This document shows positions 1,379 to 64,000 of a stretch of DNA of 64,000 nt, piece by piece. Location of the stretch: the NCBI GenBank assembly GCA_963969365.1, contig OZ017763.1:1860001-1924000 (forward strand), given 5' to 3'. This DNA comes from Asterochloris sp. CNOR1 (taxonomy: Eukaryota; Chlorophyta; Trebouxiophyceae; Trebouxiales; Trebouxiaceae). Positions within the stretch are counted from its first letter, which is position 1. Each line of letters starts with the position of its first letter. The notes beneath the pieces were generated by a model that was given only the letters and a program-made list of their open reading frames with translations, did no database searches and was not told the DNA's origin. Position numbers and translations under genes: made by a program.

Positions 1379-4300
1379 TCAGGCAAACCACTTATCCTTT
1401 GGAGGTGCGTCCTCCTTTTTGGAGGCTACTATCTCCACCACCTTGTTCTGGGCTTGGCGCTGCAGCGCAGCCTCCACCAGCACCTCAGCAACCTGAAGAT
1501 TGAGAGAGGTATGTCTTGCTGCAATGATCTGGCACACAGGGGCACTCTCATGGCATCCATGGAAGCCATTGCAGAGCTCTGCCTGCTGGCAAGGCCCACA
1601 AGGGCAGCCCAAGGCAAGCAGTCACCACATGCCAGGCAACTGGCAGCAGGCCCGCAGCTCAAGCAAGGAGGGCCAAAGCAGTCATGTTGGTTGGCGACAC
1701 CTCCACTATGTACAGCGCAAGGCTGACAGAGCCGTGTTCTGAGCACGGGGCAGGTGCTGTGCACTGCACTCGGCACCCCCCTGAGAGGCAGACTATGGGT
1801 CCTTGATGCCAGGGTCGCTTGCGAGCAGCATGCAGCATTTGCCATGTAAACACTAGTGCAAGGCCCCCAGAGGCAGCCTGGCAGAGGGTCATGTGCTTGG
1901 GCTGTATGCTGAGCAGCAGGCAGCATGTGTCATGTAGCAAACGCGGTATGCAAGGTCCTTGAAGGCATCCTGGCAGAGGGTCATGTGCTGGGGGTTACAT
2001 GTCATCCAGCAGGCACCCTGTGCCAAGCGCTCTTGAGCCTCACCGTCTGCCTGGAGATGGAACGTCCAGGGTCTTCCTTCCTGCAGAGCGACACCGGGAT
2101 TGTATATGATTGCAATGAGGTCTGTCAGGCCCAAATCAGCTGCAAGGATGATCGTGCTAAGCATGGCGTTGCACACTAAGCCGCATGCAACAGCCCTGCA
2201 ACACCCAGGTAAGATCACATCAAGGCAGACAGCATCCAGCTCCTGCCTGCCGAAGAGCTGGTCCTCGCCCCTCAGCACAAGATTGCCAACTTCGCCAGGA
2301 GACCCGTTGCTGAGGCCGCCTGGGCGCACGATGACCCAGCTCAGGCCGCTATTTCGCAAATACTTTTCAGCCTGCATGGGGACACGAGTACACTCTCAGA
2401 TGATGCAGCTTGTTGCTCGGCACGCCCACAAAGCTTGCAGGGCGTGCACATCTCAAGCTTGATGCACAGCACGGCTCCTCTCCCCTCACCTCTACCTTTG
2501 TGCTCAGCATATCCAGAAGGCTTCCAGGGCACCCACATCTCAGGCCTTATGCTCAGCATGAGATCTGGGTGCCCTCCACTCACCTCAAACTTGTTGCTCA
2601 GCACATCCCCAAAGCTTGCAGGGCACCCACATATCAAGCCTGATGCTGAGGACCCCGTCCACTCACCTCAAGTTTGTTGCTTAGCACACCCCCAAAGGCT
2701 TGCAGGAACAGGTAGTTGGGATTCAATCTCTGCCCAGCTGCTGCGCCGTTTGTGAGCAGGCTGCTCATCAGCACAAACTTCTTGACGCCAGCCTGCTTGG
2801 CTGCATCAATCAGGTGCTTTGTTCCCTGCAGAGAACCACTAGCGCATCAACGCCTTCTTGGCTGCGTCAGTGAGATGCCTCTCTCCTGTAGTAGTGATGT
2901 GGCTGTAACTTTATCAACCTGCCAGTGCACTCATCCATACAGGGTCACGTACTCAGGCTGCATCCTGCAGTGCTGCAAGGGTCCCCTGCAAGGCAGCTGA
3001 GGGAGTGGCCCCTGCAGGGCTGCAGTTGCAAAGTACTGCTGCCATCAAGCCACTGTACCCAGAGCTGAATGCAGTCCCTCACAGCGTGGTATGCATCCCA
3101 AAGGCCTACAGCCCTTGCTATACTGCTGCGCTCTACAATTGCACTGCACACGTGACCTGCAGAGCTGGCTTCTTCTTTGCGATTTGCAAGGCTGAGATGG
3201 CTACTGCCTCCCCTCCAGGGCTTACGCAGCAACATTGCAGAGGCAACAGGGTTGGACTGGCCCACCTCATTATCGATCCTCTTGGGGCCTGACAGGTCAG
3301 AGCCGCCAGCTCCAATGGTGCAGATCACGGTGTCGGCAGAGCCAATTGCCTTCGACAGGCTCCTGTACGGCACATGAGCCACTTCACACGATTTGCTGCG
3401 TCTTGCAGAGTGGCGCAGGCAGGTGCGCCCTGTTCCTGGGCCAGGACTGGGGCAACGCCCTTCTTCCAGCTCCTGCAGGGCAGGGCAGTCACGACAGCTG
3501 TGGCGGCTTCTTGCATGAGGTAGCAGTTTGGCCCCTGTCCCTGACTGATCACTGCCCTTCTAGAGGCCCCTGCAGCACATCAACCCCTGAGCCAACATGG
3601 GTGTGCAGTGCACAGCAGCCACACTAATGCCCGGCAGCTTGCAGGGCCTCTGGAGCAGCCCAGACATGGCAACTGCTTGGCATCTGCTTTGATATGTGGC
3701 TCAACGCATCTGTAGCGTCTCATGCCCATTGTCAGAGAGATTGCAGCCAAGTAACTAAAAACAAGCAAACCTATCTGCTTGCTTCACACAAGAAGTATGA
3801 CTTCATTCTGCCTGTCGTCTACGATGTCAAAGCTAGCAAGCACCCCATAGCTGGGTACTGAGGGCAGAAGCTGGGTACAAAGGCAGCCATCTGGAGAAGC
3901 CCCCACACTGCTGCTCCCAGTCTAAGCGGCAGCAGGCTCAGGGACTTTGCTGAACCCCTCAACGCAAGAATCACTGCCCTGCATAGGCATGCTGTCTGGT
4001 AACATGCTGCTGCTGCCATTGACAAGCAGCAAGGCACAGAGTGCCAGCACTCACTCTGGACTGTCAGTGACGTCAGCAGCCACCTGTTCCACATTCTTTC
4101 CCCAGCCAAGAGCCTTTCCCTTGTCTGGATTCTGCAGGGAGGTGTGCTTCATGAGGCACCATCTAGCATCAGGCAAGAGGCAGCAGTGGCACCACCCCTG
4201 TGCAGCGCAATGCTCCCTTCCCAAGTCAGTGCTTGAGACTGACCCTGGTGCCTGCTCGTACGCTGATGCCTCTTGAGCTGAGCTCTTGAATGACGAGTTT

Positions 4301-4992
4301 ACCAGTTGACCCTGCAGGCAGGCAGTGTATATATATAGAAGAAGCATCCGATGTTCTGATAGCCACATGTTGCAAGAGCACAGCAGGGCAGCACAGCAGG
4401 CCAGGGCTCACACAGCCACAGAGCGGGCAGCGCTAGGCAGCTGAAACAGGGGCAGCACTACAGGTGGCAGGCCCCGCAGCATAGTGTGCACATCACCGCT
4501 GCCAAGCACTGCAGGCTTGGCACCCACAATGTCATTCCTGAATGCTGCTCTGACTTTTGCGCATGCAGTGCAGCAAAGCAAGCAGCTCTGGCCAGCTGTC
4601 GCATTCTGCCTTTAAAACATCATGTTCAGCAAGGGCCAATCACCTGTGCTACCTGCCACAAACACAGTGGAGCCAGCTGCCAGAGCAGGCCACTGTGCTG
4701 TGCTCAGGGCAAGCACTGCTGTGCCCACTGCCGTCAGGAGTTGTCGCCTGGCAATGCTTGTGGTAGCAGGCGCCTGCATGTGCAGACTATTCAGCATTGC
4801 ACCCTCTGCTACAAAGCACTTGCAAGGCTCCTGCAAGCCTGCCTTTGGTTCGTTGGCACCATGCTGCTGCATTGAAACTCTGCATTGCTGCAGTCTCCTG
4901 GATCCCTGACTTCGCAGAGCATGTCGACTGATCGGAGTCAGGCACAGCCGTGACCGACTAGTGCCCACCTGCTGTGCATTCATGCTGGACAT
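1379..4992 (-). CDS. Atypical SDR / NAD(P)-binding Rossmann protein with thylakoid-lumen signal
   Basis: Seven exons: 4653-4992, 4244-4311, 4055-4131, 3266-3362, 2667-2825, about 2231-2371, 1379-1492. Exon 1 begins at ATG 4992 with a Ser/Arg/Gln-rich plastid transit region, then SIARRQLLTAVGTAVLALST and an ALAAG cleavage site, which is a twin-arginine lumenal signal. The mature protein opens with VFVAGSTGKLVIQELSSRG, the Rossmann GxxGxxG-like dinucleotide site. It continues with ADVTDSPESLSKAIGSADTV, ICTIGAGG, IDNEGTKHLIDAAKQAGVKK, FVLMSSL, NYLFLQAFGGVLSNK, AEKYLRNSGLSWVIVRPGGL and VAEVLVEAALQ to NKVVEIVAS. This is the NmrA/UOS1-type atypical SDR fold seen in plant plastid proteins. The E6 donor (near 2231) is weak and a short exon could be missing there. 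It is divergently paired with the tRNA isopentenyltransferase. The substrate is unknown. Confidence 0.85.
2408..2710 (-). repeat. Donor-side echoes of SDR exon 5
   Basis: The last ~45 nt of the exon ending at 2667, together with its GTGAG donor, recurs in degenerate form at about 2576-2630, 2490-2545 and 2408-2455. The 2576 copy keeps the CTCACCTC (minus-strand GAG|GTGAG) donor and the AACTTGTTGCTCAGC exon sequence almost unchanged. Copies are spaced about 80-90 nt. They lie wholly within the downstream intron. Confidence 0.8.
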
Positions 4993-5080
4993 TGCTAAGA
5001 CTTGATACTATGAGCTAGACCCTTACCCAAAACCCTTAGCCAAGCTGCATGAACGAGGCCCCTCTCCCCGCCATCTGTGC
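4993..5080. promoter_or_regulatory. 88-bp head-to-head gap, likely bidirectional promoter
   Basis: Only 88 bp separate the proposed start codons of the minus-strand SDR (ATG 4992) and the plus-strand tRNA isopentenyltransferase (ATG 5081). No TATA box is obvious. The 5' UTRs must be very short or overlap. If either initiator is wrong, the gap changes. Confidence 0.5.
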
Positions 5081-8000
5081 ATGTTTCCTGGCTCCCGACT
5101 GTTGGGACAATCTGTTCTGAGGCCTTGCCATCTGGTCAAAGTTTGCAGGCTGGCAGCCAGATCAGCTGCCGCCTCAGTTTCAGCAGGGCAGCGGCAGCAG
5201 GTCATTGTACTGACTGGCCCCACTGCCGTTGGCAAGACAGAGGTGTCCCTGCTGCTAGCCCAGCGCCTGGGAGGCGAGATCATCAGCGCAGATTCAGTGC
5301 AGGTCTACAGAGGCCTGGATATTGGCTCCGCAAAGGTGGGTATCCACTCGACTGCTTGGCTTTCTACACATGGGAGCGGATCACATGCCTGAACGGATTG
5401 GTGTGGCTGCATTGGTCACCGCACCGCTTAGGTTGCTTCCCTTCCCTGGCTGCTCCAGCTCACACCAGCTCTGGCAGCCCCAGCAGACCACAGCGCTTTA
5501 CTGTGCTGCATTCAGTGGTACATTCATCCTGCTCCTGAGGACGGCACTCCCTTGCTGTGGTTCTGCTGGCGCTGGACTGCAGTGTCTGCCTGCTGATGTT
5601 CTGTGCACAGACAGTTGTGCTCTGCAGGAACACCTCCCCCCCGCTACAGTTCCACTGTGCTGCTGGACTGCAGTGTCTGCCCTGCTGGTTCTGTGTGCAC
5701 AGAGCAGCTCCTGTGCTGTTGTTGCCTGCTAAGCCCTGGCTTGCGGGAATGCAGATCCTGCCTGAAGAGCGTCGGGACATCCCTCACCACGTGCTGGACA
5801 TCCTTGAGCCCAGCCAGGAGTTCTCAGCTGGCGTCTTTTTTGAGGCTGGCAGGGCGGCGACTCAGGCCATTTTGCAGGTCAGCAGCATTACTGCTTACAG
5901 ATTAGAACTTTGTGCAGTCCCCTGTGAATATTTCCAGAGGCTGTGTGCTGTCCTACAGCGTGGCAATGTGCCCATTGTGGTTGGCGGGACGGGCCTCTAC
6001 CTCCGCTGGTTCGTGCATGGACGGCCCTCCACTCCCCGCTCAGACGATGCTATGGCGGCCGCAGCCCAGGCAGTGCTTGACCAGGTGGGTGCACACCGTT
6101 TGACTGCTCAAGCAGCTTCGATGTTACGCCTGAAGGCTGTCATAGGCGCAGCATCTGGGTACAGCTTCATCGAAGTGGCTGAGTGCCACGCGTGACCAAA
6201 CCTGTAACAGGCTGCATTCAGATGGGGAGCATGGCGAGTTAATGAGGCAGCACAGCAGAGGCAGCTCAATTGGTGAGATATGGGCAGTCTTTCAGGTTTG
6301 CACATTGCTCCTTGCCCTCTGCAGGCATGGCGCAACAAAGGGGCGATGCTGCAGAGGCAGCTGACCTCCGAAGAGAAATGGGCAGCCGCAGTGGACTGCA
6401 TAGAGGCGGCTGGTGATCCCAAAGCAGCTGCCAGGGTCAGGCAGGAGTCCAACAACTACTACAGGTGTGCAACGTGGTACCATGTCATGCGGAAAGTCTC
6501 AGCCTCTGACAGTCAAACAGTGGAAGGCGGCTCAGAGGGTGTCGGCGCATACACACTGCCTGGTGCTGCACCCAATGACATCTGCGTCCCCTGAGGGTTT
6601 GGAGGCTGTCAGGTTATATTCTGCCTGTTCAAAGGCCAAGGGTGAGGACTGCTGCTTGTGCGCAGGGCTGCTCTTCTGTGTGACAGGCCCGCTGTCCCAG
6701 CGCAGACTCTGCGCTGCAGCAAGGTTGCAGCAAGCTGTCTAAGCAAAATGCCCTAGCCTGCCTGACTAGGTTTTACATATCAGTCCTGCGCTCTTGCAAG
6801 CCTGATGCACCTTTGGGCGTGCTTGCTGCCGCCTGTGCACTGCCTGACTCGGCTTGACATGTGTGTCCTGCCCTCGTGCAAGCTCAATCCACCTCTTGGC
6901 AGGCTTGCTGTTGCCTATGCAGGCTGCAGAGGGTGCTGGAAGTTGTGCTCCACACTGGCAAGCCCATCAGTGGACTGGACATCGACAGGGCAACCTCACT
7001 GGACTATGACTTCAGGTAGGCACCAACTGCAGACGAACTGTAGGAGCGTGAAATGTAACACAGGCCACTTGGCCTTGGAACAAATGCGGTGAGATGCGCA
7101 TGCGCTGCTGTCGAGTTTCTGATGGCCAGTGACTTTGCTCTGGGTGAAGCTCTGCACCTGACTCTGCTTGACCAAAGTCAGCCCAGTCTAAGATGTACTT
7201 GTGGTGCTTTACGGGGTGCAGTGTACCTCAGGTCGTTCCATTGGAAGCCACAAACCCTCAGAAATGCACGCAGGCAGGTCAAATGTCTCATGCAGGTGTT
7301 TCTTTCTGGACCGTCCCCGGTTGCAGCTGTTTGAGCGCATCGACCTTCGCGTGGAGCAGATGGTCGCTGGTGGGCTGTTGAAGGTGCGCGTTGGACTGGC
7401 ATGGCACGCTGCTTCCTGAGCTTCAAGGCTGCTTGTCCCTGAGCAAGCTGAGGCCTTGGCCATGAGCTGCTTGTCCCTACGCAAGCTGGGCCCTTGGCCA
7501 TGAGCAGGTATATGCTGGCAGGCATAGAGGTGCTTGTTGTCTTGGCTGTTGCGCTTGCAATCCTCACCTGAATGTCTTCATAAGGTATCGCGCCCTGTTC
7601 CTCAGCAGACCACGGGCATTGCTTCAAATGCCCAGGGACTCACCTGATCAATCAGCCTGCAGGCGGCTGCAATGCTCTTGAGGCAGGGCCTGCCACCAGG
7701 ACACAGACCTATACGATGCAGGGCATTAACCACAGGCCACTGTCTCTTCCTAGTCTCTGTGTCCAACCCTGCCTTACATAGCCACTGACCTGCAGAAGGC
7801 TGCCATGCTGCCCGGGGCAGGGCTTGACACCAGGAGAGACCAGTGTGGACCTGGTTATAGGCTACTGGCCCCTCGCAGGTCTCTATGTCTAACCCCGCCT
7901 CACAGAACGACTGACCTGCAGGAGGCTGCACTGCTGCTGAGGCAGGGCTTGACACCAGGACAGACTTGTGCCACCCGAGCAATCGGCTACAGGCAAGCCA

Positions 8001-9139
8001 TGGAAGCCCTGCAGCACTGGCAGGGCGACCCACCAACAGCAACGCCTGCAGCCCTGGTAAGAAGAAACACCTCTTGTGCAGACTATCGCCTGCACAACAC
8101 CAGAGTGAGAGTAGCGCCCCCAGCTGGCAGCAACACATGCTACTTGAGAAAGTGCATGTGGTGAAAGTGGCGGCAGCCATGGTTCAGCATGAGGGAGCCC
8201 TAAGGGTTCAGCGCCCTGCCAGGGGGTTTTGTTGCCACTGACATCTCGATATTCTCCAACCAAAGTTCTTTCCTGTTAGGGGCGATGACCTCCACTCGCC
8301 CCTGCCTGCGAATGGGGCAGGCAAAGCTGAGAGCCTTGATTAGGCAGGCACTCAAGACGCACCCGGGCAATGGGCTCATGTTGTGTCGTGCATTGCAGTC
8401 AGGCTGACAGATGTGCACATACAGCCTCCACACCCGTCACTTTTAGGAGGGACACTCACTGCCGACTGGCATGCTGCATGCAAGCATGCAGGCAGGAGGA
8501 CATACACATAAGGACCGATGAGGTGCACAGCTGTGTGCAGGTGCAGTTGGTGAAGGACATCCAGGCGGGTACCCGCCAGTTTGCCACCCGCCAGATGACA
8601 TGGTTCAGGGATGACTCCATGTACACCTGGCTGGACGCTAGCCAGCCAGCCTCTGAGGTTGTGGCATCAATCGTTGCGGGCCTGCAGCACCCGATGGCCC
8701 AAGGTGAGTTTGACCATGAGGCGGCTGCATCATGCCATTGACCCTCCAAGTCTGCTGCTTGTGCCCAGCTTGCCTGCTGCACAAAGGCTCCTGCTCCTTG
8801 CCTGGGGAAAGTCATATGAGCAGGCAGGCACCCCCATCTTGCTGGTCCACCGTTACATTGTGGGTTAGTTACTTGTGCTATCCAGCAACAAACACTGTTG
8901 TGTGTGCTCGGACGGGATACATGCCGGTCTTGCAGGCTGTGCTGAGGGTACCAGCTTCAGCGTTTTGCCCAGAGAATGATTCAGATTGGTCACGTCTTGC
9001 TGCAGGTGGCTGCGGCAATAGCGGGCGGTTGGACAAGGAGCAACAGCAGCTGCTGAAAAGGTACCAGACAAAGCTAAAGATTTTTGGCCACCGCGAGCGC
9101 ACTGCAGAGGTGCTGCAGTCTGTGCAAATCTCCCTCTGA
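5081..9139 (+). CDS. IPT9: tRNA dimethylallyltransferase (IPT9-like)
   Basis: Transfers a dimethylallyl group to A37 of tRNAs; in plants this route feeds cis-zeatin-type cytokinins. Nine exons join in phase: 5081-5335, 5755-5877, 5959-6084, 6325-6464, 6923-7015, 7296-7383, 7922-8056, about 8541-8703, 9006-9139. Motifs in order: P-loop [145 protein letters not shown]. The [17 protein letters not shown] insertion and the LRWF motif match plant IPT9 rather than bacterial MiaA. The N-terminus could be a short organelle presequence. No C-terminal zinc finger is seen. Exon 8 may start at 8541 or 8547. Confidence 0.93.
7651..7865 (+). repeat. Two decoy copies of IPT exon 7 acceptor edge
   Basis: The true exon 7 starts at 7922 (gcag|gaggctgcactgctgc). 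Degenerate copies start at 7663 and 7796, 133 and 126 nt upstream of one another and of the real site. Each has a polypyrimidine/cag acceptor followed by about 45-60 nt of exon-like sequence ([12 protein letters not shown] and [11 protein letters not shown] versus the true [12 protein letters not shown]). Both drift out of frame or reach stops. Confidence 0.85.
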
Positions 9140-10460: not shown

Positions 10461-16592
<6,132 letters not shown>

Positions 16593-16887: not shown

Positions 16888-19800
16888 TCAGGCCCTTCGT
16901 CGCGCGGCTGGCCTCCGTTCTGAGTTGGGGGTGGCCTTGCCCTTGGTGCCCTTGCCATTCCGCACCCCATTTTTGCCTGAAGCGGCGGGGCTGGCCTTCG
17001 CCTCAGAGCGTGTCTGCCGTTTTGTCAGGCCCGGACGTTCCACTGGCGGCTCGGTGGGCGTGGCTGCCTCTGGGGGAGGGGGCTCCTGCAGCTGCTGAGG
17101 GGCCACTGCCACCGCCACCGCCAGAGAGGCTGAAGCTGCGTTGCGCGCAGCTGGTGACTTTGCTGCTGCTGCTGCCCCAGCATCCTGCAGGAAGAGGTGA
17201 AGACAATTACTCCTTAGATCAGTTTCTTGCACAAGCAGCAGCTGAGCTTTGACAAAAAGCCCCACCTGCCAGCAGAGCTGGCGGCAACAGGCCCAGCACA
17301 GAGTCTCCTAAGATCTCCTCCCAGGCACCTCATGAGTGCAGCAGGCACCAGAAAGTCTGAAGGGTACCCATCTGACGCCACCTTCCTCACTTGCGCGGGC
17401 CATCAGCGCAATCGTAGCACTGCCAACCCAGCAGGGGACCCTAAACTCAGAACCCTAGAATCAAACCCTCACCTGAGCACCCCTGGGAGCCACCATGGGC
17501 ACGCCGGCGGCCTTGTCCCGTGGCGGTGGCATGGACAGAGATCCCCGCAAAGTTCTTGCTGCCTCCTCGCCCCCGCGGCCAGCTTCCGGCATGCTCTCAG
17601 TGCGGACCACCTTCAGCGGCTTTGCCGCATTGGGTTTTGTACGCCGCACGCGCTGGGCGCCACCGGAGGGCCCTGCACATGCAAAGTCTCTTTGTGACTG
17701 CTGATCTGATAGCTGGTGTTCCTGTCCGGTTCTGTTGTAATGTCCTCCTGCCAAGGCTGGCAAACACAACAGGAAAGTTGGGAGCACCCTAGAAAGCCCT
17801 TGCCACATCACTGCAAGACCGCACCAGGCAACAGGAAGCCCACCTGCCAGGGTCTGGAACTTGGCGTGCTCCTGCGCCTCCAACAGCGCATGCCTGGCCG
17901 CAAAGGCAGCATCGCTGTCATCCTCAGAGAGAGCGTCCTCGACTGCCTGCCCAGCAGACGGGCCGCCAACCAGATCGGCGATGTCCGGCAGCACATCTCC
18001 AGAGTCTGTGGGGGAGGCAGCACAATGGCGTCAGGGGTGAGCTGTCTCTGGAACATTGAGAGTCTAGAGTTGCCCTCCAGATGTGGCGCACCTGTGAGAG
18101 GCACTGCAGCTGCCCGCCAGAAGTGGCGCACATGTGGCAGCAACCCTCACCCCAAGGTTTCCCAAGGTCTCATGTGCAACCAGTGCAGCATCTGACAGGA
18201 CCAAAGCACAGCGCATGCTGGAACAGCTTTGCAGACACGGCACACAAAGGGACTACATGTGCCAGCAACCCTCACCCAAAGTACTCCCAAGGTCTCATAT
18301 GCAAGTGGCGCAGCACCTGACAAGAAGCAGTGCACAGGACATGCAGGAACAGCTTTGCAGATACAGCACGCAAAAGGACTGATGGAACAGCAGTAATACA
18401 GCTGCTGCACCTTTGCCAGCAGCCTGGGCCTGGAGGTACTGGATGGCTCGCCGTCGCCGATCCTGCTCGGCATCGGGGACCAGCCGCACCTCGGGGACCG
18501 CAATGCTCTGCTTCTGCAGCCAGCAGCAGAGAGAGGGTCAGCAGAAAGACACCGCACTGTGTTGCTGGCAGCCGCTCATTCACAATGCTGCAGCACAGCT
18601 GGGGCCACAGCTGTGCCTCAAGAACCACTACCTCTGCACTACGGCGCAGGCAGTGGCTCTTCAGCACAGCGCAAGCAGAGGCTCTGCAGCACAGCGCAGA
18701 CTGAGGCTCAGCGCTTCTGCGCAGGCTGGGGAGGGACTGCACAAAGCATTGCTGCTGCAGAACAACTTGAAGAGGTGGCTGTATCTCAGGCACTGTGAGG
18801 CAGAGCATCTGCAGCACAGCAGTCAGTATGGATGCAGACAGAGCCAGCGGTACAGCGCAGCCCGCGAGGCAAGCCATGGAGAGACCTGGCGCTGGAGCAC
18901 GGCAAATGGCATACCCTGCCAGCCTCCAGAGAGCATGGAGGTCCGATCCACCTGATTGGTGTGCAGTCTGAGATAGCCGCAGAGCACAGGCCTGCATGTG
19001 GCAGCAGCAGAGGGCGCACGTCAATTGCACTCACCACAGCGGGGACGATGCGTGCCCCAGGCATGGCAGGCATCACATAGTCGACGTCCAAGTACTCAGT
19101 CCTCCGCCGCTTGCCCAGCTTGCTGCCAGCACGATCGAGCCCCTTGGCGGTAGGTGCAAACATGCCCCGCCGGCCTGGTTTGCCCCTCTTGGGCTTGGCC
19201 CCGCGAGCAGCCTGCAGCAAGGGACACTGTTCTTAGTTGCATGCTGCTCCCTTTGTTCCCCAAGAGCAGCTGTGTGAGCTACATGCTGCTGTCTTGGAGA
19301 GCAGGTGAGGTTGAAGGGGGGGGGGGGGGGGGGGGGGGGCAGGCAAAGTTGGGACACATGAAGCACATCCCCGGCGAGCTGCAGGGCATGGCAGCGCACA
19401 CAGGTGTCCAACATGGTATCAACCAGGTTTGCCCTGCTTGAGACTGACAAGAAGGTACCGTCAGGGCCCAGCAGCGGAAAGGTACCTGTGCTCCCATGCT
19501 TCACCTGAGGCTGCGGCTTCACCCCACGCATCACTCGGAATCTGGGGCCCCACACGCAGCTGACTCTGTGTTCTCACTTTTGAGTACAGATGGGCCCACT
19601 GAATCAGGCTGAGGCCTCCCTGTCAACACCATCTGGCCCACACAACGCCACAGGGTCCAACAAGAGAGCAAAGACTCAGCTGCCATGCCCTGGCAAGCCT
19701 GACTTTGCACCAGGCCTGCTCTGCTTGGCAGCCTCCAGGGCGAGGGCAGCTGCAGTGCTCACAGGAGACCCCTTTACCCGTAAACATTCTCACAGGAGAC

Positions 19801-48400: not shown

Positions 48401-51400
48401 GTGCTGCTGCTGCAAGGCGCTGCTGTCTTCAGCGCCTGTGCTGCAAGCGCATCCCAAAGCACAGGCGTGTTTTCGCTGCCTGCAGGGAAAGGGGTGGCAG
48501 AGAAATAAGTCAGTGGTGCTGCTGCATGGCAGTGCTGTCTGCAGCTTTCCAGGGGGTCTTGCCGCACCTGTGCTGTAGGCAGGGAGCGCAGTGAAGGTAA
48601 CACTGTCTTGCACAGGCTGGCCACTTTGCTTCACCTGCTGCATGTGTAGCAGACTCGCGGGACCGATGTAAAGTTTTGGCCCTGGAAGGACGCAACATTG
48701 CGCTTCGTGTCCCAAAGAAAGCAATACGCTGGCAGCAAGCTGCTGGAGCAAGCTGCGACCATAGTGCATATCGCGTGTATGCAGGCGGTGCATATGAACT
48801 GGACTGTTCCAGCCCATGGGCACTTGCATTGCCTTCCCACCCACATATCTTGGAAGGTTGCATGTGCTTTGTGCCAAATACTGGATGTGTAGCATCCTTA
48901 CATCCATCGGAAGCACTTGCTTGAAGCCTGTTTGTGATACACAAGAGCTGTGCTGCCCACCTGCAGCAGTTGACTGTCTCTCTGCATCCCTGCATCACCC
49001 CCTCATGCTGCCTGCGGGGGACTGGTGCGTCAGCAACCACTCCAACAGGCAGGCGCCCTAGTGCCTGCCCTGCGACTATGCAGACCCCCATACACGCTTG
49101 TGGCGCCTCACCGGAACACAAGACGCGCAGAGCTGAGCTGCTCACCTGCGCTGCCCTGCAACTATGCAGACCCCCAAACACACTTGCGGCGCCTCCCCGG
49201 TACACAAGGCATGCAGAGCTGAGCTGCTCACCTGCGCTGCCCAGCGACTATGCAGGCCCCAAAAACCACTTGTGGCGCCTCACCGGTACACAAAACATGC
49301 AGAGCTGAGCTGCTCACCTGCGCTGCCCAGCGACTATGCAGGCCCCAAAAGCACACTTGTGGCGCCTCACCGGTACACAAGACATGCAGAGCTGAGCTGC
49401 TCACCTGCGCTGCCAGCCCGGCCCTTGACGGGCGAGGGGCTCTGCTCCAGAGTCCCCAGGCTGAGCACGCCGGCAGCGATCACGTCCAGAGCTGGCAGGC
49501 CCACCTGCTGGCCGCCAGGGAACTCCAGGTACAGCGTGGCAATGTCTGCCTGCAGCACAGCAGGCAAGGAGTTCCATGCAGCCTGGCACCAATCTCATGC
49601 GACAAGGGGAATGGCAGCTTGCTGGGCTGCAGGGGGATGTGCCACAAGCCTGCCAGTTCCCCATGTCCGTTTCTTGAGTGCTTGAGAGGAGCAGAACAAC
49701 AGCTGTGACTGATGTGCACCAGCTTGGCAGGGCACCACACGCACGCAAGCCTGCCAGCTTTCAACACAATTTTTAAGAAGTTAAGAAGTGCTCGAGGTGT
49801 GTAGGACACTTTTTGTGACTCACATGCATCAGCTTGGCTGGGCGCCACACTCCCTCCGGCCCCGTCAGCACCTCAACAGGCTGCCCTGCCAGCTCCAGCA
49901 CATCCCCCAGGTCGCACAACTGCAGCAAGAGAGAAACAATGCCGGAGTGCAGAAGCTTGCTGCATGGGTCGTTGGGGAGTGATGCACACTGAAGGGTCGA
50001 GCGCGTCTCTAGATTGCACAGCTGCAGCACAAGGCAGTAGGAGAAGACACATACTGCAGAAGCGTGCTGCATGGAACACTTTGGTAACAATGCTCTCTGG
50101 AGGGGCCAGCACATCTCCCAGGCCGCAACGCTGCAGCAGGGAAGGGTAAGACGTGTACATCAGGTTACACTATGCAATTGTGCCAGCTTCAGCAGGTTTC
50201 CCATGGGGCGAGGCTGCAGGGAGCCAGGTGGGATGTGAGATAGCAAGGCTGGACATCGAGGGCAAGGGATGTGCAGGGTCTGGCAACAATCCAGCCGGTT
50301 CAAGTAGGGACGCCTGTGGTCTGGGGCATGCCGACAGGGCACATGCAGCCACCAATCTGCAAGTGCACCCAAACCCTTTCAGATGTGGCAGGCAAGCAAG
50401 GGGCAAGACGCTCATTTGGCCTGCAGCAGGTCACAAAAGCCCGGCCTGCAGCAGGTCACAAGGGCTGCTCATAGCGTGGCCTAAAGGTCAATAACATGCG
50501 CATCTTGTTACCCTGCCCTCAGCAATCTGCAGACTGCACATGTAAGAGGCAGATGTCAGCACAAGTGGCTTCAAGGTGCCCAGCGCAGGTCAGTCAGTGG
50601 TGATCAGCACACACACTTGAACACCAGCGCAGACTAAGCCCAATCATTTTGCCGACTGCGCCCGATCATCTCACCTGCAGAAGGCGGCGCCCGCAGCCCA
50701 GGCCTCTGCTGAGCACGCTGAGGCCCCCACCGCTCAGCCCACTGCTGGTGAAGCCGCTGCTGCTGGGCAGGGCCACCTGCTCGGCGCTGCTGAGGCCGCT
50801 GCTGAAGCCGGAGGCCGTGCGGGAGAGCGGCAGCTCGGGCAGTGGGGCGGCTAGCGTCGGCGTGGGCAGCTTGTCAAACACCTTGGCGTCCTCCAGGGGG
50901 TCGCCCTCCTCCTCAAACACGAGGGCCCGGGGGCGGTGCTGCACCAGCACCTACAGGAAAAAGAACCAGGTTCACAGGAGCACAATAACAGGTCAACATG
51001 TACTGCTGTAATCTGACTTGGTGCGTCAGCAGGCAGCGGCTTGATGAGGGGCACATCATGGGTTGCATTTCTCCTTGAGCAACAGACCCCAAAAGCGGCG
51101 TTGTACCAACTGCAGGAATGGGCTACAAACAGGAGTCAAATCCAGGAGGGCTGGAGACCAGTGTGGTCACAAGGCCATGAAGGGAGCGCAGCAATTCCGG
51201 CCCCTCATTCCTTGGAGTTGTTTAGCTTTCACCTGAGCACCTGCAGATGCTCTAACCCTTCAGGCTGGTAGAGGCCCAGAGGTCATGCAAGCCTCTCTCT
51301 TTGCAGATCCCATCCCTGCGGGTGGGCAAGCACTCCAAGCCCATGGCCGCAGACCTCTGGGCAGAACGCGAGGTGGCAAAGTTTGCACTTCAGCGCTCAG

Positions 51401-54400
51401 CGGGCAACCCACCTCCTCTGTGCACCCACAACCCTTTTGAGTGCGCGACCCCCCCCCCCCCCCCCACATCACACTGCTGCAGGCCTCCAGGCGAGATGCC
51501 ACCAGGCATGCTCCATCTTCAAGCGCTCCCCAATGACCCACCTGCTCTTGTGCACTCACAGCCATGTGGGTGTGCGGCCCCACCAGGGACACTTGAGATG
51601 ACCTCCAGGCAAGCCGTGTTGACCAGTGATCCTCTGTTGACCCACCTTCTGGTGCGGCCCCGCACCCCTGCGTGTGGGAGACCCCTCCAGCGCAGCAGCT
51701 GCAGCGGCGGCCGGGGCCCCCAGGGCAGGGCTGCTCCCTGTGGAGCGCGCGATGCGGCACCTCTGCAGCCCACTTGCGCCCGTGGCAGTGGCCGCCCCCT
51801 GCTTGGTCCCCTGGGCCCGCTTCTTCAGCGCGCGCTCCTCTGCCTGCATTGCAGTGACGGGGACTGGGCCTCATGCGATCATATATTGTTCAAGGAGGGC
51901 TGCTCGGACTGGGCCGCTTCTCCAGCGCCTGCTCCTCTGCTTGCATGGCAATGACAGGGACTGGGGGGCCTTTGGTGATTTTGGACTGTTGCTAGAGGGC
52001 AGCTAGCCCCAGGGCATGCTTTCACAGCACATGACCCTGGGCCTGCATGGCAATGACAAAGGCTTAGGTCTGCTGCGCTGTCAACACTCACTGCACTCAG
52101 AGAATGCTGATGTGACCGGTCCCACTCCCGCCTGCCGGCAAGTGCAGGGTGCAGGCCAGGCCCTGGCAGCTCTATCTGGCCCGCCCTTCACTGTGCGCCA
52201 GAGAAGCCAGGCCTCACCTTGCTGACCCCCTTAATCTTCCCTGTTGTCCAAATGGCCGCCTGGTAGTCCCTGTTGCGCACCACATCAGAGCGCCGGCACC
52301 CGTCCTCAGCTGCAGCAGAGGCACGCGCACCATCAACACCCAGGTGGCACCTCAGTCATGGGCAGGGAGCAGGGAATCCCTCAGGTGCAGGGCGGCAGGG
52401 TCTGCAGGGCGCTCGATCGTGACACACAACCTGCAGGACAGTCAAGTGCCTGCACCCAGCCACAGCTGTAGCGCATATATAGTGCACTTCAGCCAGCAAG
52501 GTGCAGCAGTGCAGCTCCAGCACAAGCGTCAGGCGGTGCAGCAGCTGCCCTTGCCTGCAGAGCAGACATCATCGGGAGCTGAACCTCTCATGACTGCCAT
52601 GCGGCCCCACGTTACCCTCTGGCAGCAGCCAGGGGCGTATGCATTTGGCCGCATCACCATCACAGCTGCAATCGATCACAACAGACCGACGAGATGAGAG
52701 ATGTTGCTGGGCAGGCAGATGCCCCTTACCATTTGTCAAGCTGGTGCTGTGTGGAGCACTTCACCCATGCACAACACAGGAATTGCTCAAGCTGTCTCAC
52801 CCTTAGCCTCTGCCAGCTTGCGGCGCAGCCAGGCGCTGTTGTTGGAGGCGGTTGGCTGCCCAAAGGCCCTCAGGAACTCGGCCCTCAGCTGTGGCACGCC
52901 CATGGTTGCCAGCACCCTGCAGGCAAGTGCACAGGTCATTCAGTATTCTGGTCGACTGGGGCCCCAGCTGTGGCACTCCCATGCCTGGCGGCGCTCTTCA
53001 TGCCAGCTTGTAGCATCACGCCCCTGGGCACTGCTGGGTGAGGCAGCTGCTTGCTTAGCAGCTTTCTGGTCACGCAAGGCGATGGTACTCAGAGTCTGAG
53101 GGTGCCGGCAAACCTTGTGCACAGTGTCCCACACCCCAAACAGGTCCTTACAGAGCACCAACGCAGCAAGAAGGAGAGTCTCGAAATTGACAAAGTGTTT
53201 GCTGACCGTGAGCTCGGCCAAAGCGTCAGCTGCCAAGTGCAGTGATGGCTCCTGCCAAGCTGAGGGCGAAATGTCATACAAGGTGCATCCCAGAGACTAC
53301 AAGTCAGTTAAAGGGCTTTAGCCAATAAAGTTGTGCAACAGGACCAGACGTCAGCCCAGGGGGAAGACCCAGCCCCAACAGTGCAAGAACACAGAGTCAG
53401 TGACTCACTCAGGGTCCATGCCGGCGCCGCCAATCCAGGTGAGGGGCCGGTTGGGCTGGATGGCGCCCTTGCCTTTGGCTGAGGTGGCTGGCCCACTCCC
53501 TGCCCGGCACAGACCCTGCAGGCAAGCAGCGTGCTCCCGGCCGAGACTTGAGGTGCCGCCAGGGTGTTGACAGTTTGTGTGCCTCTGCGGGATGGGTGCC
53601 GGCGCTCTGAGGTGGTGCTCAGGGACTGAGGAATAGAGGGGAGTTTGAGTGACACTTTGTGAGGCTTGGGCAGGAGGGTTGGCAGGCTGAACCTCTGTGG
53701 GGTGCTGGGGGATATGAGTATGAACCGGGTCTGTCTTAAGGTCAGTCAGTTCTCTCCACTCAGACTCATGCGGACAACCCCTGCTGGATGGCGGGGCCTT
53801 CAGAGGCGCAGGCTGCTGCTGGCTACCATGCATCAAGGCCAGCACAAGCATTGTATAACACGGCATGGACTGCCGACCCACATAAAGCAGACCTGCCTGC
53901 TTGTTGGCACAGTGAGGTTCTCAGGTGCAGATTAGCCGTGCTGGTGAAGTGATCTCCAGCCAGCATCATCTGCTGAGCGGCAGGACAATGGCTGCTTTAA
54001 ACAAAGGTGCTTGCCTGCTTGTTTGCCGGGCAGGCTACGTGGCGCTCAGCCTCGATGTGAGGGTACGCAGACCGCTCCTGGCGGCTCAGCCTGCACAGTG
54101 AAGCAGAGCATGTGTAACTGAGCTGTGAGGGGTCATAGGAAAATACTGCCTGGCCCCCTGTTGTCCCAGTCAGCATACACACCAGGGAAGTGGTGAGCTG
54201 CAGCCTGCGAAATCAAGGGGTGGTGCGATCTTTTGGGGCTCCCTGACAACACACAGCGCGCTGGTGCAAGACTCCTTGCTGGAAGGATTGCCGGCATACT
54301 CGCAGGTGACCTGAGCAGAGCGCCCATCGGTCGCAATGGTGTGCAAAGTGCAGCATGGTACATGAGCTGTTCATTGTATTGTTGTGATGAGCCCCCCATG

Positions 54401-57800: not shown

Positions 57801-57981
57801 CAGGGCTCCTTTGTAGGGGTCAGCGTCTGCCATCTGCGCAGCTATCCTGGGGCTTTCCCAGATCCACGAGCTGCCTCCCTTTACACTGTTCGGGGGGGCG
57901 GGCCTCCGCCACCTGCGACCTGTTCATGTGCGCTGCAAAGCCCTTGCACAACCCCTTGAGCTGCCCCCCTGTCCCCTGCAG
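54880..57981. other. 3.1-kb region with no firmly assigned gene
   Basis: It lies between the start of the large minus-strand gene and the first supported phosphatase exon. A plausible plus-strand exon is 54915-54968 (LDRRKQLNVVDVKLDFVQ between ctgcag and gtgagg). Another is the open stretch ending at the donor 55481 (ARVYITFWAIAIFNDAQ). They cannot be joined to each other or to a family, and the minus strand is equally open at 55228-55503. The 55.5-56.8 kb part is AT-richer. 57.2-57.98 kb probably contains upstream phosphatase exons, with ccctgcag sites recurring near 57593, 57696 and 57801. Confidence 0.4.
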
Positions 57982-59904
57982 GACACCTCTGCAGGGGATC
58001 GGAGCCGCTACCGGCGCGCAGCTGGGAACCAGCCCTGCGATGCCTGCGGCAGGCGCCTGCACGCCGAGGCAGGTGTGGACGTCCATGTGTGGCACGTGCA
58101 GCTGATTGGCACGGGCACCAAGGGACGCATCTTCGGGGGCATGCCGGCTGGGGTGCAGGCTCACACCCTGGCGGCTGCGTGCTGCTTCTCGCACCCCAAG
58201 GTGGGTCCGGCTCATCATCCGTGCTGCTTCTCTCACCCCAAGGTGGGTCCGGCTCATCACCCTGGTGGCGGCGTGCTGCTTCTCGCACCCCAAGGTGGGT
58301 CCGGCTCATCACCCTGGCGGCTGCGTGCTGCTTCCCTCACCCCAAGGTGGGTCCGGCTCATCACCCTGGCGGCTGCGTGCTGCTTCTCGCACCCCAAGGT
58401 GGGTCCGGCTCATCACCCTGGCGGCTGCGTGCTGCTTCCCTCACCCCAAGGTGGGTCCGGCTCATCACCCTGGCGGCTGCGTGCTGCTTCTTTGTGCTGC
58501 TCCTCTCACCCCAGGGTGGGTCCAGCTCATTCAGCCAGAACTGTGCGCAGCTCTGGCTGCAGCTGCTTGCAGCATGAGTCGTGGAAACTGTGGCTGGGGT
58601 GCATCAGGCTCCTGCGTGCAGCGTGTCCGTGGTGCCTATGCCTCTCCCTGCAGGTGCCTGATGTCCACTCCTGCTCCCACCTGCAGCGTGTGATGGTGGA
58701 CGCCGTGGCTGACCCTCGGGAGTTCGGCTATGCCAAGCTGTATGCCCTGCTGCTGGGGGACTGCCAGAAGCAGCTGGCGGCTGCGCTCAGGGTGTTCACG
58801 CACCCCGGCAACTTCCCCCTCCTGGTGAACTGCGTTCAGGGCAAAGACCGCACAGGCCTCATCGCCATGCTGGTTCTCATGCTCTGCGGCGTGCCTCATG
58901 TGGTGAGACTGCAGACATGCTTCTTGCATGGCTGTGCCTGCATACGCTGAGCATGGCAGTTGTCCTGCTGAGCAGTGGGGTGTGCCACACGGTGAGGGTG
59001 TGGCTGTGGCTTCTGCTGCTGAGATGGCAGAGACAAAGCGCAGAACGCACCAGTCTTTGCAAGTGAAGGTAGACAATGGGCTGTGTCGTTCCTTGCGTGC
59101 AAGGGTGTCAGGCTGGGCTACAAGCCAACCAAATCAGCATGTTTGCAGGGAGGTGTGGATGTGAAGCCATGAAGTTGATTCGCTCTGTGGTCATGGGAGC
59201 AGCCAGCTCGCTTCCATGACAGCGTTTCTGCTGTGCTCCATAACTGGTCCCCCTGGTCTGCAGGTGATCATGGAGGATTTTGTGCAGTCCCAGGAGAATC
59301 TTGAAGCCGATCTGCGCTACTTTCGGGCCGGCGGCCAAGAGGGTGAGGCGACCTCTGCTGGCACAGTTCTCTGCTGCTGCTGGCAGGCTCTGCAGGCACA
59401 GGACAGTGCGCAGCCACTTGGGCTGTCGCTGGCAGACGCTGCAGCCTGCACACGTTGTCCAGGAGCCACGGGGTGCTGTTACTGGCAGGTTTGGCTGCTT
59501 ACACAGGGCTTCGCAAGGGCACTCATGTTGCTGCTGGCTCAGCAGCTCATACAGCTCTGTGAGGGTCAGCCAGCAGGCTACCCATGCGCAACGGCGACAC
59601 CGCTGTGTTCAGCACAGCTTGTCACAAGGGCCGGCTAGCAGCCTCATGTTGTGTTGCTGGCTGGTTGAACATGGCAAGCCCATCATCTCCTGCCGCGCAT
59701 TGGCCTCACCCATTGCACTGCCATCCTGCAGGAGATGGATCACTGGTGAAGACTCCCATAGGTGCAGATGCTGCATCCATTCTGGACACAATAAACCACC
59801 TCAACGCCACCTGGGGCTCTGCCGAGAAGTACTGCCAGGTGCAGCTGGGCCTTTCAGACGCTGAGCTCACCTCAATCCGCACCAATCTGATGAAGAAGCC
59901 GTGA
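57982..59904 (+). CDS. Tyrosine/dual-specificity phosphatase, Y_phosphatase3-like
   Basis: Four exons: 57982-58199, 58654-58902, 59264-59342, 59732-59904, in phase. Exon 58654 gives VMVDAVADPREFGYAKLYAL and FPLLVNCVQGKDRTGLIAML. NCVQGKDR fits the CX5R phosphatase loop with the GKDRTG form typical of the Y_phosphatase3 (PF13350) family rather than classical PTPs. The C-terminal exon (INHLNATWGSAEKYCQVQLG, LSDAELTSIRTNLM) matches that family's end (GS.E.Y....GLS..E...LR). Exon 57982 (VWHVQLIGTGTKGRIFGG) is less certain but in phase. The start codon and N-terminal substrate domain are not resolved and lie upstream. It may act on phosphotyrosine or phosphoinositide; the sequence does not decide. 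Confidence 0.8.
58168..58525 (+). repeat. Seven-copy 52-nt tandem repeat carrying a splice donor
   Basis: The unit accccaaggtgggtccggct...gcggctgcgtgctgcttctcgc starts at 58193, 58235, 58287, 58339, 58391, 58443 and 58508, with four exact 52-nt steps. Each copy keeps CCCAAG|GTGGGT (CCCAGG in the last). The first copy ends the exon at 58199; the rest fill the start of the intron. The unit length is not a multiple of three, so using a later donor would shift frame. Confidence 0.96.
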
Positions 59905-60333
59905 CTGCATCCCCATTCTGACCCCAGCATTCCCTCTTCCCCAGTCAGCAGCTCAGCAACCACAGGAAGCCTGCCATTGCAGAGCCTTGAATAAACATCA
60001 CAGTACTTGATCTGACGCACCAGCTTCAGGCGCCACACTATGGCGGTTCTGCAGGCAGACCTGAAGCCTCCTGAGCTCTCTGCTTGCCAGCTGCTGTTTC
60101 TTGCTAGCCTCGAACAAATTGCTTGCTCATATCTTTAGCTGGTTGACCCTGTCTCTGTGCTTTTATGGTGTCGTTACAGCTTGTGCAGCAATTAAATTTC
60201 ATGCCACAGAATCACAACATGCAGAACCAATGCAAGAAAGTGTAAGCGAGAAATCAGTCCCCAGAGTAGGCGTGTGTTCAGTCAGTGCTGCAATGCGCCA
60301 TTAAATCATTTCAGTCAAGTACATCAGGCTGAG
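59905..60333. other. Convergent 3' intergenic gap, 429 bp
   Basis: Separates the phosphatase stop (+) from the stop of the minus-strand helical-repeat gene. A TGTAA at 60240 on the plus strand fits the chlorophyte poly(A) signal and could end the phosphatase transcript. No ORF is supported. Confidence 0.5.
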
Positions 60334-63300
60334 TCAGGAGAGGTCTAGGCTAGCATTTCTGCCGCGAGAGCTGCCGTCCACAAATGGCAGCCACTTTGCC
60401 CTGCCAGCTTGACGAGCTAAGCCTGGCCAGGTGTCCACAATCCTGTTGAGCGCATCAACTGCCAGCTTTGCCTCAGTGCCTGCAGCAGCGCCACTCATGG
60501 TTCCCTAAAGAAGGCATGGCTACAGTCACGCCTCGTCTGCAGGCAAGCTCAGCATGCAAGGCATGATGTATGACATCCTCATCTCCTGTACTCCGCCGCA
60601 GCACACTTGGGGTGTCTGATCTAGAGATCCACTGGAGCACCCCAGAGTGCAAATTATGAGCATGTTGAGTCAGCGCCAAAGTGCATTGACAGACCATCCA
60701 TGATCACCTGTGTCGTCGATGCAGGAGGCCCACTGCAGCACCTCCACCTGCTGGGAAGCACCACCAAGGGGCTCGCTCTGCGCGTCTGAGAACCGCATGA
60801 TGGCATCCAGCACCTGCAGCAATGAACTATGCAATCAGGGCTCTCTGCCGCTGTCAGACGGTGCTGAGCGCAGCACGATTTGGTCTAGGCCAGATCAGCT
60901 TGCACTGCGATTGCAAGCTCCGCGGAACCTGCATTGAGGAGCCAGCCACCAGGCAGGGTCTACCTGGAGGGCGTCCTTGCTGAGCTGGGACTCCAGCAGA
61001 TTGGAGACTGGCAGAAAGAGGCGGCTGTCACTGATGAAGCGGGCGTGGGGCCCCAGCTGTAGTCCGGGCGCCTGCAATCAGACAGGAAGGGTTGAGCAGG
61101 GCAAACCTCAGGAAGCTCTAGGTGGGCCAGCAGGGTGTTTGCCCACAGGCAGAGTACAGGCTGTGGCTCAGCTGCATTGTGTTGCATGGCCTGAAGAAAG
61201 CCAAGCATCATACGCAGCGGCTTCAGCCATTTTCCCAGTGACCTCCAAACAGCACATCCCAACCGTTGCTGACGTCAGTTATTGCCCAATTAGAGCTTGC
61301 AGCATGCACAATGCCAGGCGCTGATACTGCCGCAGGCTGACCCCTCATCACCGTCCATAAAGCAGGGCAGGTTGCCTGAGAGGACTGGCAATACGTTCTG
61401 TCAACACAGGGAGCAACGTGCAACTACAGTGGAGCTGTGCTGCCAGCAGCCCCTAACAATGCAGGGCGCCCCACGCAATGTCAGCAGGCAGCTGTGCTGC
61501 CTTGCCAAAGCTTTACCTGAGGGAGTGACTGTCTGGCGCACACCCACTGCATAGCTGTGCGTGAACGCGGCTGAGTGCCTGGCTGCCATGCACCAACCAA
61601 CCTTCCAAACTCCATGCAGCCAGCCAGCTCACCTCAAAGATGGCTTGCAGGATGCACAGCGCCAAGCGCTGATACTGCAGCGTCAGCCGCAGCAGCACCT
61701 CCATCATCCGCTGCACCGCAATCTTGGCAAACCTGCACATCAAGCGGAAAGCTGTCCTGTCGAGGTGCATGCCTGCCCAGTGCTGCCCTCGGCATGCTGC
61801 ACAGGCAGGGCGGTGGCCTGCACTACACGTCTGCTGTTGACTCTGGTGTGTGCACTTTCTCAGGGTTGCACAGAGCTGGGTGGCTGTACATATGTTTTGC
61901 ACACCAGCCTGCTTTTTGCACACCTGCTTTCAATTTGCACTATGGCGCTTTTGTTCAGGGGACAGGGAGGACATGAACAGTCTTGCACGCCAGCCTGCAT
62001 TCCGCGCCTGGACTGGCGTGTCAAGCGAGCAGACATGGAATCTCCCTGCAGACCTGCTTGTGAGTATGCTGCACAGGCATGGGCACTCGAGAAGCGCAGA
62101 AACCAGACGTCTTGCACTGCCTGTGCAAGTGCTGACACCCAAACTGCAGGTTGCATGTCAGCCTTGTCATCCTGACACAGAGTCGGCTCAACATGGCACA
62201 GCTGGAGACACAGCTGCCGCAGACTTCCTTGAGCAGGACATTATGGGGAGATGCTGATCACGGCCTGCCCTGCTGACTGCCATGCACAGCACGCTCACCG
62301 AGGGAACAGGGACTGGCACAGATGGGGGCACAGCTGCCGCAGGATGTCCTGCAGCGAGGCGCGGCTGTCCGCCTGCAGCACCCGCAGGCCATCGGCGGCG
62401 TGGTGCAGCGCCATAGCGTCGCAGGCCCTTGCCAGTGCCTGCAGTCATGAGCCACTTGTGGCCACTTGTGTTGTTTGAGAGACTTAGGTCAGGAGTAAGG
62501 CCGCCCGCGCAGCGTAGGTCTAGGCTGACACTGCCCAGCGGACCAGTGACCAAGTAGCTGCCAGGCCGTGCGGGTGCATGCTGCAATGCCGCCGATGATA
62601 GGCAAGCAAAGTTCAGCAGCATGCAGGCCCCTGCGGTTGCTGCGTGACTGCTGTGCCGTAAGTGCACGCACAGCGAGGGCCGGACAGAGAACATCATGAA
62701 GCTTGACATGTCAACTGCCACAACACTACACTTCCCAGGCAGCCCACCTCTTGTCTGACAGCAGGCAGGCAGAGCTCACCCGCGTGCAGGCCCCCGCAGT
62801 CGCTGCGTGGCTGCTGTGCCGGAAGTGCACGCACAGCCAGGGCAGCACAGAGAAGATGGTGAAGGCCAGTTGGTCACGCGGGTCCCCCAACAGGGCCGCG
62901 ACGGCGTCGTTGCTGCCCTCAGGTGCAGGGGACCCTTCCATGAGCGTCAGCGCCGTCACCGCCTCCTCCCGAGCGCCGGCGGGGCGCCTCATGTTGGCTA
63001 TTTGCTCTGCCAGCTGGGTCATGACCTGCATGGGTGCATGGTGCTGCATGTGAGGCTTCTGCAGCACTCTGCTCTGGCTGGTGCCCGGCTCTGCCCTGGT
63101 GCTGCAAGTCACCTGCGGGCTGTGGGTGTGTGAGGGCAGCATCTGCAGCCACCCACTGTGGGAAGGGTGGGTGCACCGCAGCTCCTGCCAATTCTGGCAG
63201 GTCGTTCCAAGGTAGCTACCTGCAGCCCAGCTGGGTGAGAACCTGCAGAGTCAGGGTCCTGGGTATTAGTGGCAGCGTTAGGGTCTCTCCGAGGGAGTGG

Positions 63301-64000
63301 GTGTGTCTGGCACAAACACTGGGTGTGGGCTATGTGCTTTGCCAGCTGGGCTGCGCCCCGCAAAGGTGAGTACATCAGTGCCTCATGTTGGCCATGTGCC
63401 TTTGGCAAGCAGCTTGTCATCCAGCGGTGGCATAAAAGCAAAGGCCTCTGTCGTCTCAGTGCTCCTTCACCGGTTGCTCAGCATCACGTGGTGTGGCAGC
63501 AGGGCGTTGCAGGATTCTTGAAATGCCCTCTAAACTGCCATACATGTCCCCCCTGAGGGCTGAGAAATACAGCAATCAGCGGCTCACTTGTACTGTCTGC
63601 AGGCGGGTGTCGTGCTTGAACAGCCCCTTGACCAGCAGCTGCTGGGCAGCGCACAGGTTCCCACGAGCAAGAAGGCTGGCACCCACACGCCACCGCCGCT
63701 GACTCACGGCGGCGTCCGCCTGCAAGCCAAGAGGCCACTGCTGGGCACCGATATGACGGCAACGTCGCGGGTGCACTCAGGCATGACAAGACGTGTATGC
63801 ACCTCTGCAGCCAGCAGCACAACGAGTTGAGGAGTGATTTTTCATGAAGGCCTACATGATAGATGCTGCAACGTCAGGGAGATTGTAAGGTGTGTAGTCA
63901 TTGAAGCTGAAAGGCAGGGACCACCCTGACTGCCAGGCATGTCAGGCTTCACTACTCAGAAGGCTGTTGCACAACTGCAAATACAAGGCAGTTGAGTCTG
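60334..64000 (-). CDS. Helical-repeat-like protein, family unknown (N-terminus beyond window)
   Basis: Exons on the minus strand: 63588-63698 (VGASLLARGNLCAAQQLLVK), 62780-63025 (VMTQLAEQIANMRRPAGARE; LAFTIFSVLPWLCVHFRHSS), 62299-62438 (CDAMALHHAADGLRVLQADS), 61633-61732 (IAVQRMMEVLLRLTLQYQRL), 60964-61071 (RFISDSRLFLPVSNLLESQL), 60708-60813 (VLDAIMRFSDAQSEPLGGAS), 60334-60479 (KLAVDALNRIVDTWPGLARQ; stop at 60334). The exons are Leu/Ala-rich amphipathic helices with no enzyme motif, consistent with an ARM/HEAT-type scaffold such as a transport receptor or complex subunit. I cannot name it. The C-terminal joins 60708 to 60479 are in phase; some middle joins are unverified. The 5' end lies right of 64000. 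Confidence 0.68.
62617..62870 (-). repeat. Donor-side echo of exon 62780-63025
   Basis: 62617-62700 is a diverged copy (about 80% by eye) of 62781-62865, the last ~85 nt of the exon encoding PWLCVHFRHSSHAATAGAC. The copy reads PSLCVHLRHSSHAATAGACM in the same sense and runs on without a clear donor. Spacing is about 165 nt. A shorter acceptor-side echo (QLAKHIAH for QLAEQIAN) lies near 63330-63400. Confidence 0.9.

Follow-up and report, generated by a model that had tools for sequence, protein, structure and literature searches.

We analysed a stretch of 64,000 nucleotides (nt) from the Asterochloris sp. CNOR1 genome (contig C18, positions 1860001-1924000, forward strand), hereafter the window, in which many introns contain copies of the edge of an adjoining exon, splice site included. 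These copies are referred to as echoes. The genome comprises 56,383,464 bases in 21 contigs. Among the window genes are SDR, IPT9, SCS-alpha, an ABCI-like gene, OGG1, a tafazzin candidate, a Tudor-like gene, a phosphatase, a MOR2-PAG1-like (helical-repeat) gene and a bromodomain gene. A Pfam scan gave family support to 9 of 10 window proteins, with matches to the NAD-binding, IPP transferase, succinyl-CoA ligase, ABC, OGG_N plus HhH-GPD, acyltransferase (the tafazzin candidate), tyrosine phosphatase, MOR2-PAG1 C-terminal and bromodomain families; the Tudor-like protein had no Pfam match. Over 99% of its length, the hand-read SCS-alpha protein (295 amino acids, aa) shows 100% identity to jgi/Astpho2/1071, Astpho2 being presumably Asterochloris, and the Astpho2 phosphatase protein P0121 differs from the window phosphatase at several residues. 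Judged from these proteins, the window strain is probably a close relative of Astpho2 and not the same strain.

Echoes are found along most of the window. On the reverse strand, the end of SDR exon 2667-2825 and its donor recur within 2409-2697 (donor test p≤0.001), with an offset of 83 between the copies at 2572-2614 and 2655-2697 and older copies down to 2409. Two echoes of an acceptor and exon head (7656-7962, forward strand, p≤0.001) precede IPT9 exon 7922-8056 at offsets of 259 and 125-126. SCS-alpha, also on the forward strand, has a degenerate array of acceptor and exon-head copies at 15093-15456, upstream of exon 15416-15524, which was found by self-matches and in the curated test described below. 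The offsets of this array are 315, 223, 161, 151 and 89, and its copy at 15101-15142 was miscalled as an exon; the Astpho2 protein P0001 holds exon 15416-15524 once. The same gene contains a purely intronic 128-nt tandem duplication (12277-12544), an event of the same kind without an exon edge. In the ABCI-like gene (reverse strand), exon 26061-26138 is echoed in its upstream intron (26063-26389; offsets 113, 242 and 108) and exon 27222-27292 on its acceptor side (27257-27422; offset 122), both according to the curated test. In OGG1 (forward strand), an older donor-side echo of exon 34697-34834 lies at 34812-34949 (offset 111-112; curated test), and the end of exon 36750-36888 is doubled together with its donor at 36847-37031, with a period of 93 and ∼90-95% identity. 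Degenerate acceptor-like copies in the 3' part of OGG1 (39149-39780; repeats at offsets 105-567) are followed by a candidate last exon, read by eye and located outside the gene model.

In the Tudor-like gene (reverse strand), four units of 86-87 nt at 49065-49414 carry the donor of exon 49405-49549 and ∼10 nt of the exon; the repeat is clear, yet it did not score in the exon-only test. The gene also has a donor-side echo of exon 49824-49919 (49704-49850; offset 110; curated test) and acceptor-side echoes of exons 51774-51843 (51646-51843 in the curated model; echo at 51814-51965, offset 97) and 52801-52916 (52876-53006; offset 79; curated test). The phosphatase (forward strand) has seven donor-bearing copies of the end of exon 57982-58200, spread over 58158-58530 with starts from 58192 to 58507. 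In the MOR2-PAG1-like gene (reverse strand), donor-side echoes accompany exons 62299-62438 (62194-62342; offset 120) and 62780-63025 (62600-62864; offset 163; curated test). The annotated Astpho2 proteins P0001 and P0121 follow the echo-free reading.

Exon edges were tested against their own introns in two sets of gene models. The curated test employed 11 hand-made window models with 67 introns and hence 134 exon edges. The two edges of a 2,255-nt intron were entered as p=1, which left 132 tests to run, each against a background of 1500 introns that came from outside the window and had been cropped or joined. In this comparison, 20 of 134 edges matched their own intron at p≤0.001, where 0.13 were expected, and the matches fell in 9 of 11 gene models. 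Eight of the nine genes for which a preliminary description of the window had reported echoes were borne out (SDR, IPT9, SCS-alpha, ABCI, OGG1, the Tudor-like gene, the phosphatase and the helical-repeat gene). Tafazzin dropped out (best p=0.033, false discovery rate 0.18 in the curated test), and the bromodomain gene, absent from the earlier list, passed.

For a wider view, we used 304 kb, consisting of the window and 24 stretches of 10 kb spaced along 8 contigs (25 sequences). The 17 hand-read exons of IPT9 and SCS-alpha served as the training set for a simple gene finder based on a hidden Markov model (HMM), whose output comprised 56 gene models with 530 introns. Of the 17 training exons, 13 were reproduced exactly in the final training round, after 15 in the first; these figures are not an independent test. 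The first or last 45 nt of each exon were compared with the adjoining intron, with 200 foreign introns as control and a cut-off of p≤0.005. Of 418 exon heads, 24 matched their own upstream intron, where 2.1 were expected; of 413 exon tails, 28 matched their own downstream intron. No excess was seen for exon heads against the downstream intron (2/365), for exon tails against the upstream intron (1/365) or for exon middles (0/224 and 1/212). An echo of their own edge was carried by 51 of 476 tested introns, in 18 of the 25 sequences. The process is therefore spread over the genome, as had been supposed, with the window (15/142 edges) about twofold above the remaining stretches (37/689; Fisher p=0.034). 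The 52 significant echoes have periods of 41 to 385 nt, a wider span than the 52-145 nt first given. Echoes always lie on the intron side, a matter of geometry, since a copy has to run on into the exon body to be the real edge. The splice dinucleotides are retained at about the rate that overall identity predicts: of 28 donor echoes, 19 could be scored and 13 of these have GT, where a mean identity of 0.85 predicts ∼14; of 24 acceptor echoes, 11 could be scored and 7 of these have AG, where 0.82 predicts ∼7.

The edge echoes are part of a general abundance of local direct repeats. Within the window, ungapped self-matches at offsets of 20-600 with a score of at least 20 numbered 70, compared to 0, 0 and 0 in three far-offset ranges. 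Across the 304 kb there were 300 direct matches at score 16 and offsets of 20-700 versus 5 at offsets of 3000-3680, and 182 versus 0 at score 20, present in 20 of the 25 sequences. Inverted local repeats, which were checked as a sign of template switching, were few (15 versus 3 in the control). The copies are thus predominantly direct (300 versus 15 inverted) and local, as in short tandem duplications and intronic minisatellites; head-to-tail arrays are seen at 49.07-49.41 and 58.16-58.53 kb, and older pairs often match only in part. The matches group into 165 clusters, 51 in the window (1 per 1.25 kb) and 114 in the other stretches (1 per 2.1 kb), and the latter density, scaled arithmetically to the genome, amounts to some 27,000 clusters. 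Cluster periods are mostly 20-350 nt, with 81 of 165 between 80 and 175, and multiples of three are not over-represented among them (remainder 0 in 43 clusters, 1 in 62 and 2 in 60). The best identity per cluster spans 0.70-1, reaching at least 0.90 in 49 of 165 and at least 0.95 in 18 of 165. This range, from 70-75% to 99-100% between copies, agrees with the earlier suggestion of an ongoing process. The pattern is real, genome-wide and still active.

Growth of an intron could be followed at the phosphatase. Its intron at 58201-58653 measures 453 nt, of which 315 nt lie between the first and the last exon-end copy. Relatives were compared through predicted proteins that read on into the intron, and copies were counted by a peptide motif; the comparison comprises three records (P0122, P0123 and P0127) at one locus. 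There are 7 copies of the exon end in the window, 11 in P0127, 2 in P0123 and 1 in P0122. P0127 comes from a separate contig and is nearly identical to the window around the array. P0122 has no echo and ∼63 intron-like codons where the window has 151, so the intron is older than the array, and the copy numbers of 1, 2, 7 and 11 show that the length of the array has changed among relatives, as that of a minisatellite does. The idea of ongoing growth holds at this one locus. Other close hits comprised a spliced model (P0121) and three proteins that start past the donor (P0124, P0125 and P0126). P0121 joins donor 58200 to an acceptor ∼36 nt 3' of that in our model (58654-58689), skipping VPDVHSCSHLQ. 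For IPT9, all four hits (P0164-P0167) begin too near the exon to cover the acceptor echo.

In order to see how far the exon edge is special, a 45-nt query was moved across it, starting at an intron depth of 255 nt and ending at an exon depth of 60 nt, with 215 to 315 introns per position. Inside introns, 3-7% of queries had a partner in their own intron, a nearly flat rate. The figure was 6-10% for queries that span the splice site, 4-8% in the first window within the exon and 0.4-1.9% at an exon depth of 45-60 nt. The shape of the profile was unchanged when both flanking exons scored strongly as coding. The excess of edges over intron interiors is hence at most about twofold. That interiors are nearly as repetitive as edges goes beyond the preliminary description, and it gives no support to the proposal that introns are built specifically from exon edges: of the intron growth suggested there, lengthening is supported, at least at the phosphatase, and specific construction from edges is not. 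A special mechanism at edges is likewise not needed for most of the signal. We simulated uniform tandem duplications that were accepted within introns or across one edge and discarded within exons; neutral substitutions were confined to introns. The simulation reproduced the observed shape, including a dip beside the edge and a local rise at it, and it yielded most of the edge signal (acceptor edge, 17 observed versus 17.1 expected; donor interiors, 67 versus 70.3 as the sum of five offsets). Variants with half tolerance or a 45-nt limit on exon sequence fitted the edges less well.

We consider it probable that these introns reflect frequent short direct tandem duplication throughout the genome, on which splicing and selection act as a filter, and that exon edges are for the most part just included in the duplicated pieces. 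Duplications within exons would mostly be purged by selection, and those within introns would be retained; in favour of this, exon-exon clusters numbered 4, versus 10.2 when clusters were placed by rotation. Duplications that straddle a splice site would also be kept, since splicing could still use the copy continuous with the exon body; the spare copy would then become intron, which would be longer by one unit. Copy number in the arrays would later go up or down, as seen at the phosphatase, and point mutation would erode the individual copies, the exon-derived part of an echo seeming younger because its partner is constrained by the protein. Splicing would act here as a tolerance filter, and replication slippage or end-joining may be the source of the duplications; the splice sites taken to be used in the RNA are predicted ones.

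Several observations weigh against duplication that is blind to position, and some of them favour an alternative in which duplications arise preferentially at exon-intron edges, mainly donors, for instance through R-loops or transcription-coupled repair, so that introns grow from their edges. The duplication rate in the simulation was set by hand, and even unscaled it falls short at donor edges (25 observed versus 16.3 expected) and over-predicts acceptor interiors (52 versus 77.6, sum of five offsets). Rescaling to the interiors leaves, by simple arithmetic, an edge excess of ∼1.5-fold, and at offset -15 on both sides 40 echoes were observed versus ∼26 after rescaling. When clusters were placed by rotation, edges were hit by 45 clusters compared to 32.4±4.4, and 0 of 300 rotations reached 45; the excess is only modest, as random placement already often lands on edges. 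Repeat coverage reaches 7.1% of bases in predicted introns but is lower in exons (4.2%) and in intergenic DNA (3.9%), albeit with crude intergenic calls that may hide untranslated or missed coding sequence, whereas position-independent duplication predicts equal coverage of introns and intergenic sequence. In the rotation test, clusters that are only intergenic were not clearly short (19 versus a mean of 23.1). The coverage and rotation results are compatible with a mild preference for transcribed regions and for edges. Two further points concern the copies themselves. The best match fills 0.6 of the period in only ∼30% of the 165 clusters, so that many pairs are not demonstrably head-to-tail today. 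In addition, the simulation predicts more echoes at an exon depth of 60 nt than were observed (0/244 and 1/236, with ∼6 expected each; P=0.0018 and 0.016), and copies with a long piece of exon could splice badly and be removed. Echoes almost never hold more than ∼45 nt of exon, perhaps owing to selection against strong decoys. Set against preferential duplication at edges are the intron interiors, which also echo themselves at 3-7%, and the slower decay expected of exon-anchored copies, which predicts part of the rise at the edge. The exon half of straddling echoes is indeed better conserved than the intron half (0.71 versus 0.56, p=0.002), a difference that protein constraint on one of the copies would produce, although the 47 pairs in this comparison were chosen by match score. 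On balance, growth of introns from their edges seems to us unlikely, if still worth serious consideration. A related version, in which duplication is tied to transcription or splicing and focused on introns, chiefly at donor edges, with selection removing decoys that hold more than ∼45 nt of exon, appears somewhat less likely again.

The remaining explanations fare worse. The echoes could be artefacts of assembly error, of the shared TGCAG motif and base composition, or of a gene finder that places edges in repeats, and our gene finder did take an echo for an exon twice (15101-15142 and 33634-33660). Against this, the distant-offset control gave 5 matches at 3-3.7 kb versus 300, the foreign introns control for composition and motif, the strong-exon subset and the hand-curated models each agree with the pattern, and the phosphatase array is present in the independent contig of P0127 too, which makes an artefact very unlikely. 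Creation of introns by tandem genomic duplication, whereby exonic segments bearing AGGT are doubled and the spare copies turn into introns, is a mechanism known elsewhere (PMC4974935, PMC3443670, PMC2891723). In Asterochloris the echoes hold intron as well as exon sequence, the echo-free P0122 still has its ∼63 intron-like codons at the position of the phosphatase intron (one intron), and a doubled exonic AGGT segment is not what we see, with heads matching the downstream intron in 2/365 cases and tails the upstream one in 1/365; we regard this origin as slightly more improbable still. Mobile introns (introners) or transposons inserted in many genes might mimic local echoes, and introners are reported in ∼5% of species (PMC9860276); many genes are affected here also. 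Near-identical copies at many loci were not found: whole-genome searches with three edge-spanning units, at 58.2, 49.2 and 36.9 kb, gave matches at their own loci only, which excludes only similar dispersed copies, since the same search with the unit at 12.3 kb found the query alone and missed its ∼77% identical tandem partner. Copies of low identity could escape in this way, but mobile elements have in our judgement next to no likelihood as the source of the echoes.

Some further features of the window were noted. Each of the 17 hand-read acceptors has CAG or AG at its end, mostly after TG (TGCAG). The SCS-alpha introns at 10849 and 13586 start with GC instead of GT (gcaagt and gcaagc), and the Astpho2 protein supports both junctions. 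Another SCS-alpha intron contains an open stretch of 44 aa at 13942-14073 (forward strand), which appears to resemble part of a glyceraldehyde-3-phosphate dehydrogenase. Because 39 aa of it are 97% identical to C5:2698871-2698987, this intron seems to have received a copy of an exon from another gene. Long runs of G and of C occur at about 19316-19339 and 51449-51467 and are possible trouble spots for assembly or replication.

Our literature searches, as far as the indexed text allowed, retrieved no report of genome-wide exon-edge echoes. The available text of the A. glomerata genome paper (PMC6652019), which gives a genome of 56 Mb with 9 introns per gene, does not mention the pattern, and the word 'tandem' is absent from its main text; the accessible part of the Trebouxia A48 genome paper contains nothing on intron repeats. 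In this compact genome, intron lengthening by tandem duplication appears to be caught in progress, with dated steps readable within single introns. About 1 in 10 tested introns (51/476) carries a detectable copy of its own edge, and these introns could serve as natural test cases of how decoys are passed over by the spliceosome. The echoes also call for caution in annotation, as they can be called as exons and so probably give rise to erroneous gene models in this genome.

Ordinary intronic minisatellites and short tandem duplications consist of direct units of tens to a few hundred bases in variable copy number. The Asterochloris repeats do not differ from these in any essential respect, save that many units straddle splice sites and thereby carry candidate decoy donors or acceptors. 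Tandem duplication has been described as a source of new introns in potato RdRp and vertebrate ATP2A1 (PMC4974935, PMC3443670), and the potato report also includes an 83-bp tandem duplication within an intron that left the gene structure unchanged. As in these cases, short genic tandem duplications involve splice sites and splicing hides the spare copy; unlike them, existing introns lengthen in Asterochloris, and duplication of an exonic AGGT is not required. The account of novel intron positions in Drosophila (PMC2891723) shares with our data duplicated proto-splice sites and competition between neighbouring sites, but it involves tandem duplication or intron sliding, whereas the echoes decay within the intron and show no shift in intron position. 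With introners (PMC9860276), Asterochloris has in common that many introns of one genome are affected. It differs in that its units are locus-specific in the three cases tested, contain exon sequence, and sit in introns that have a sequence of their own.

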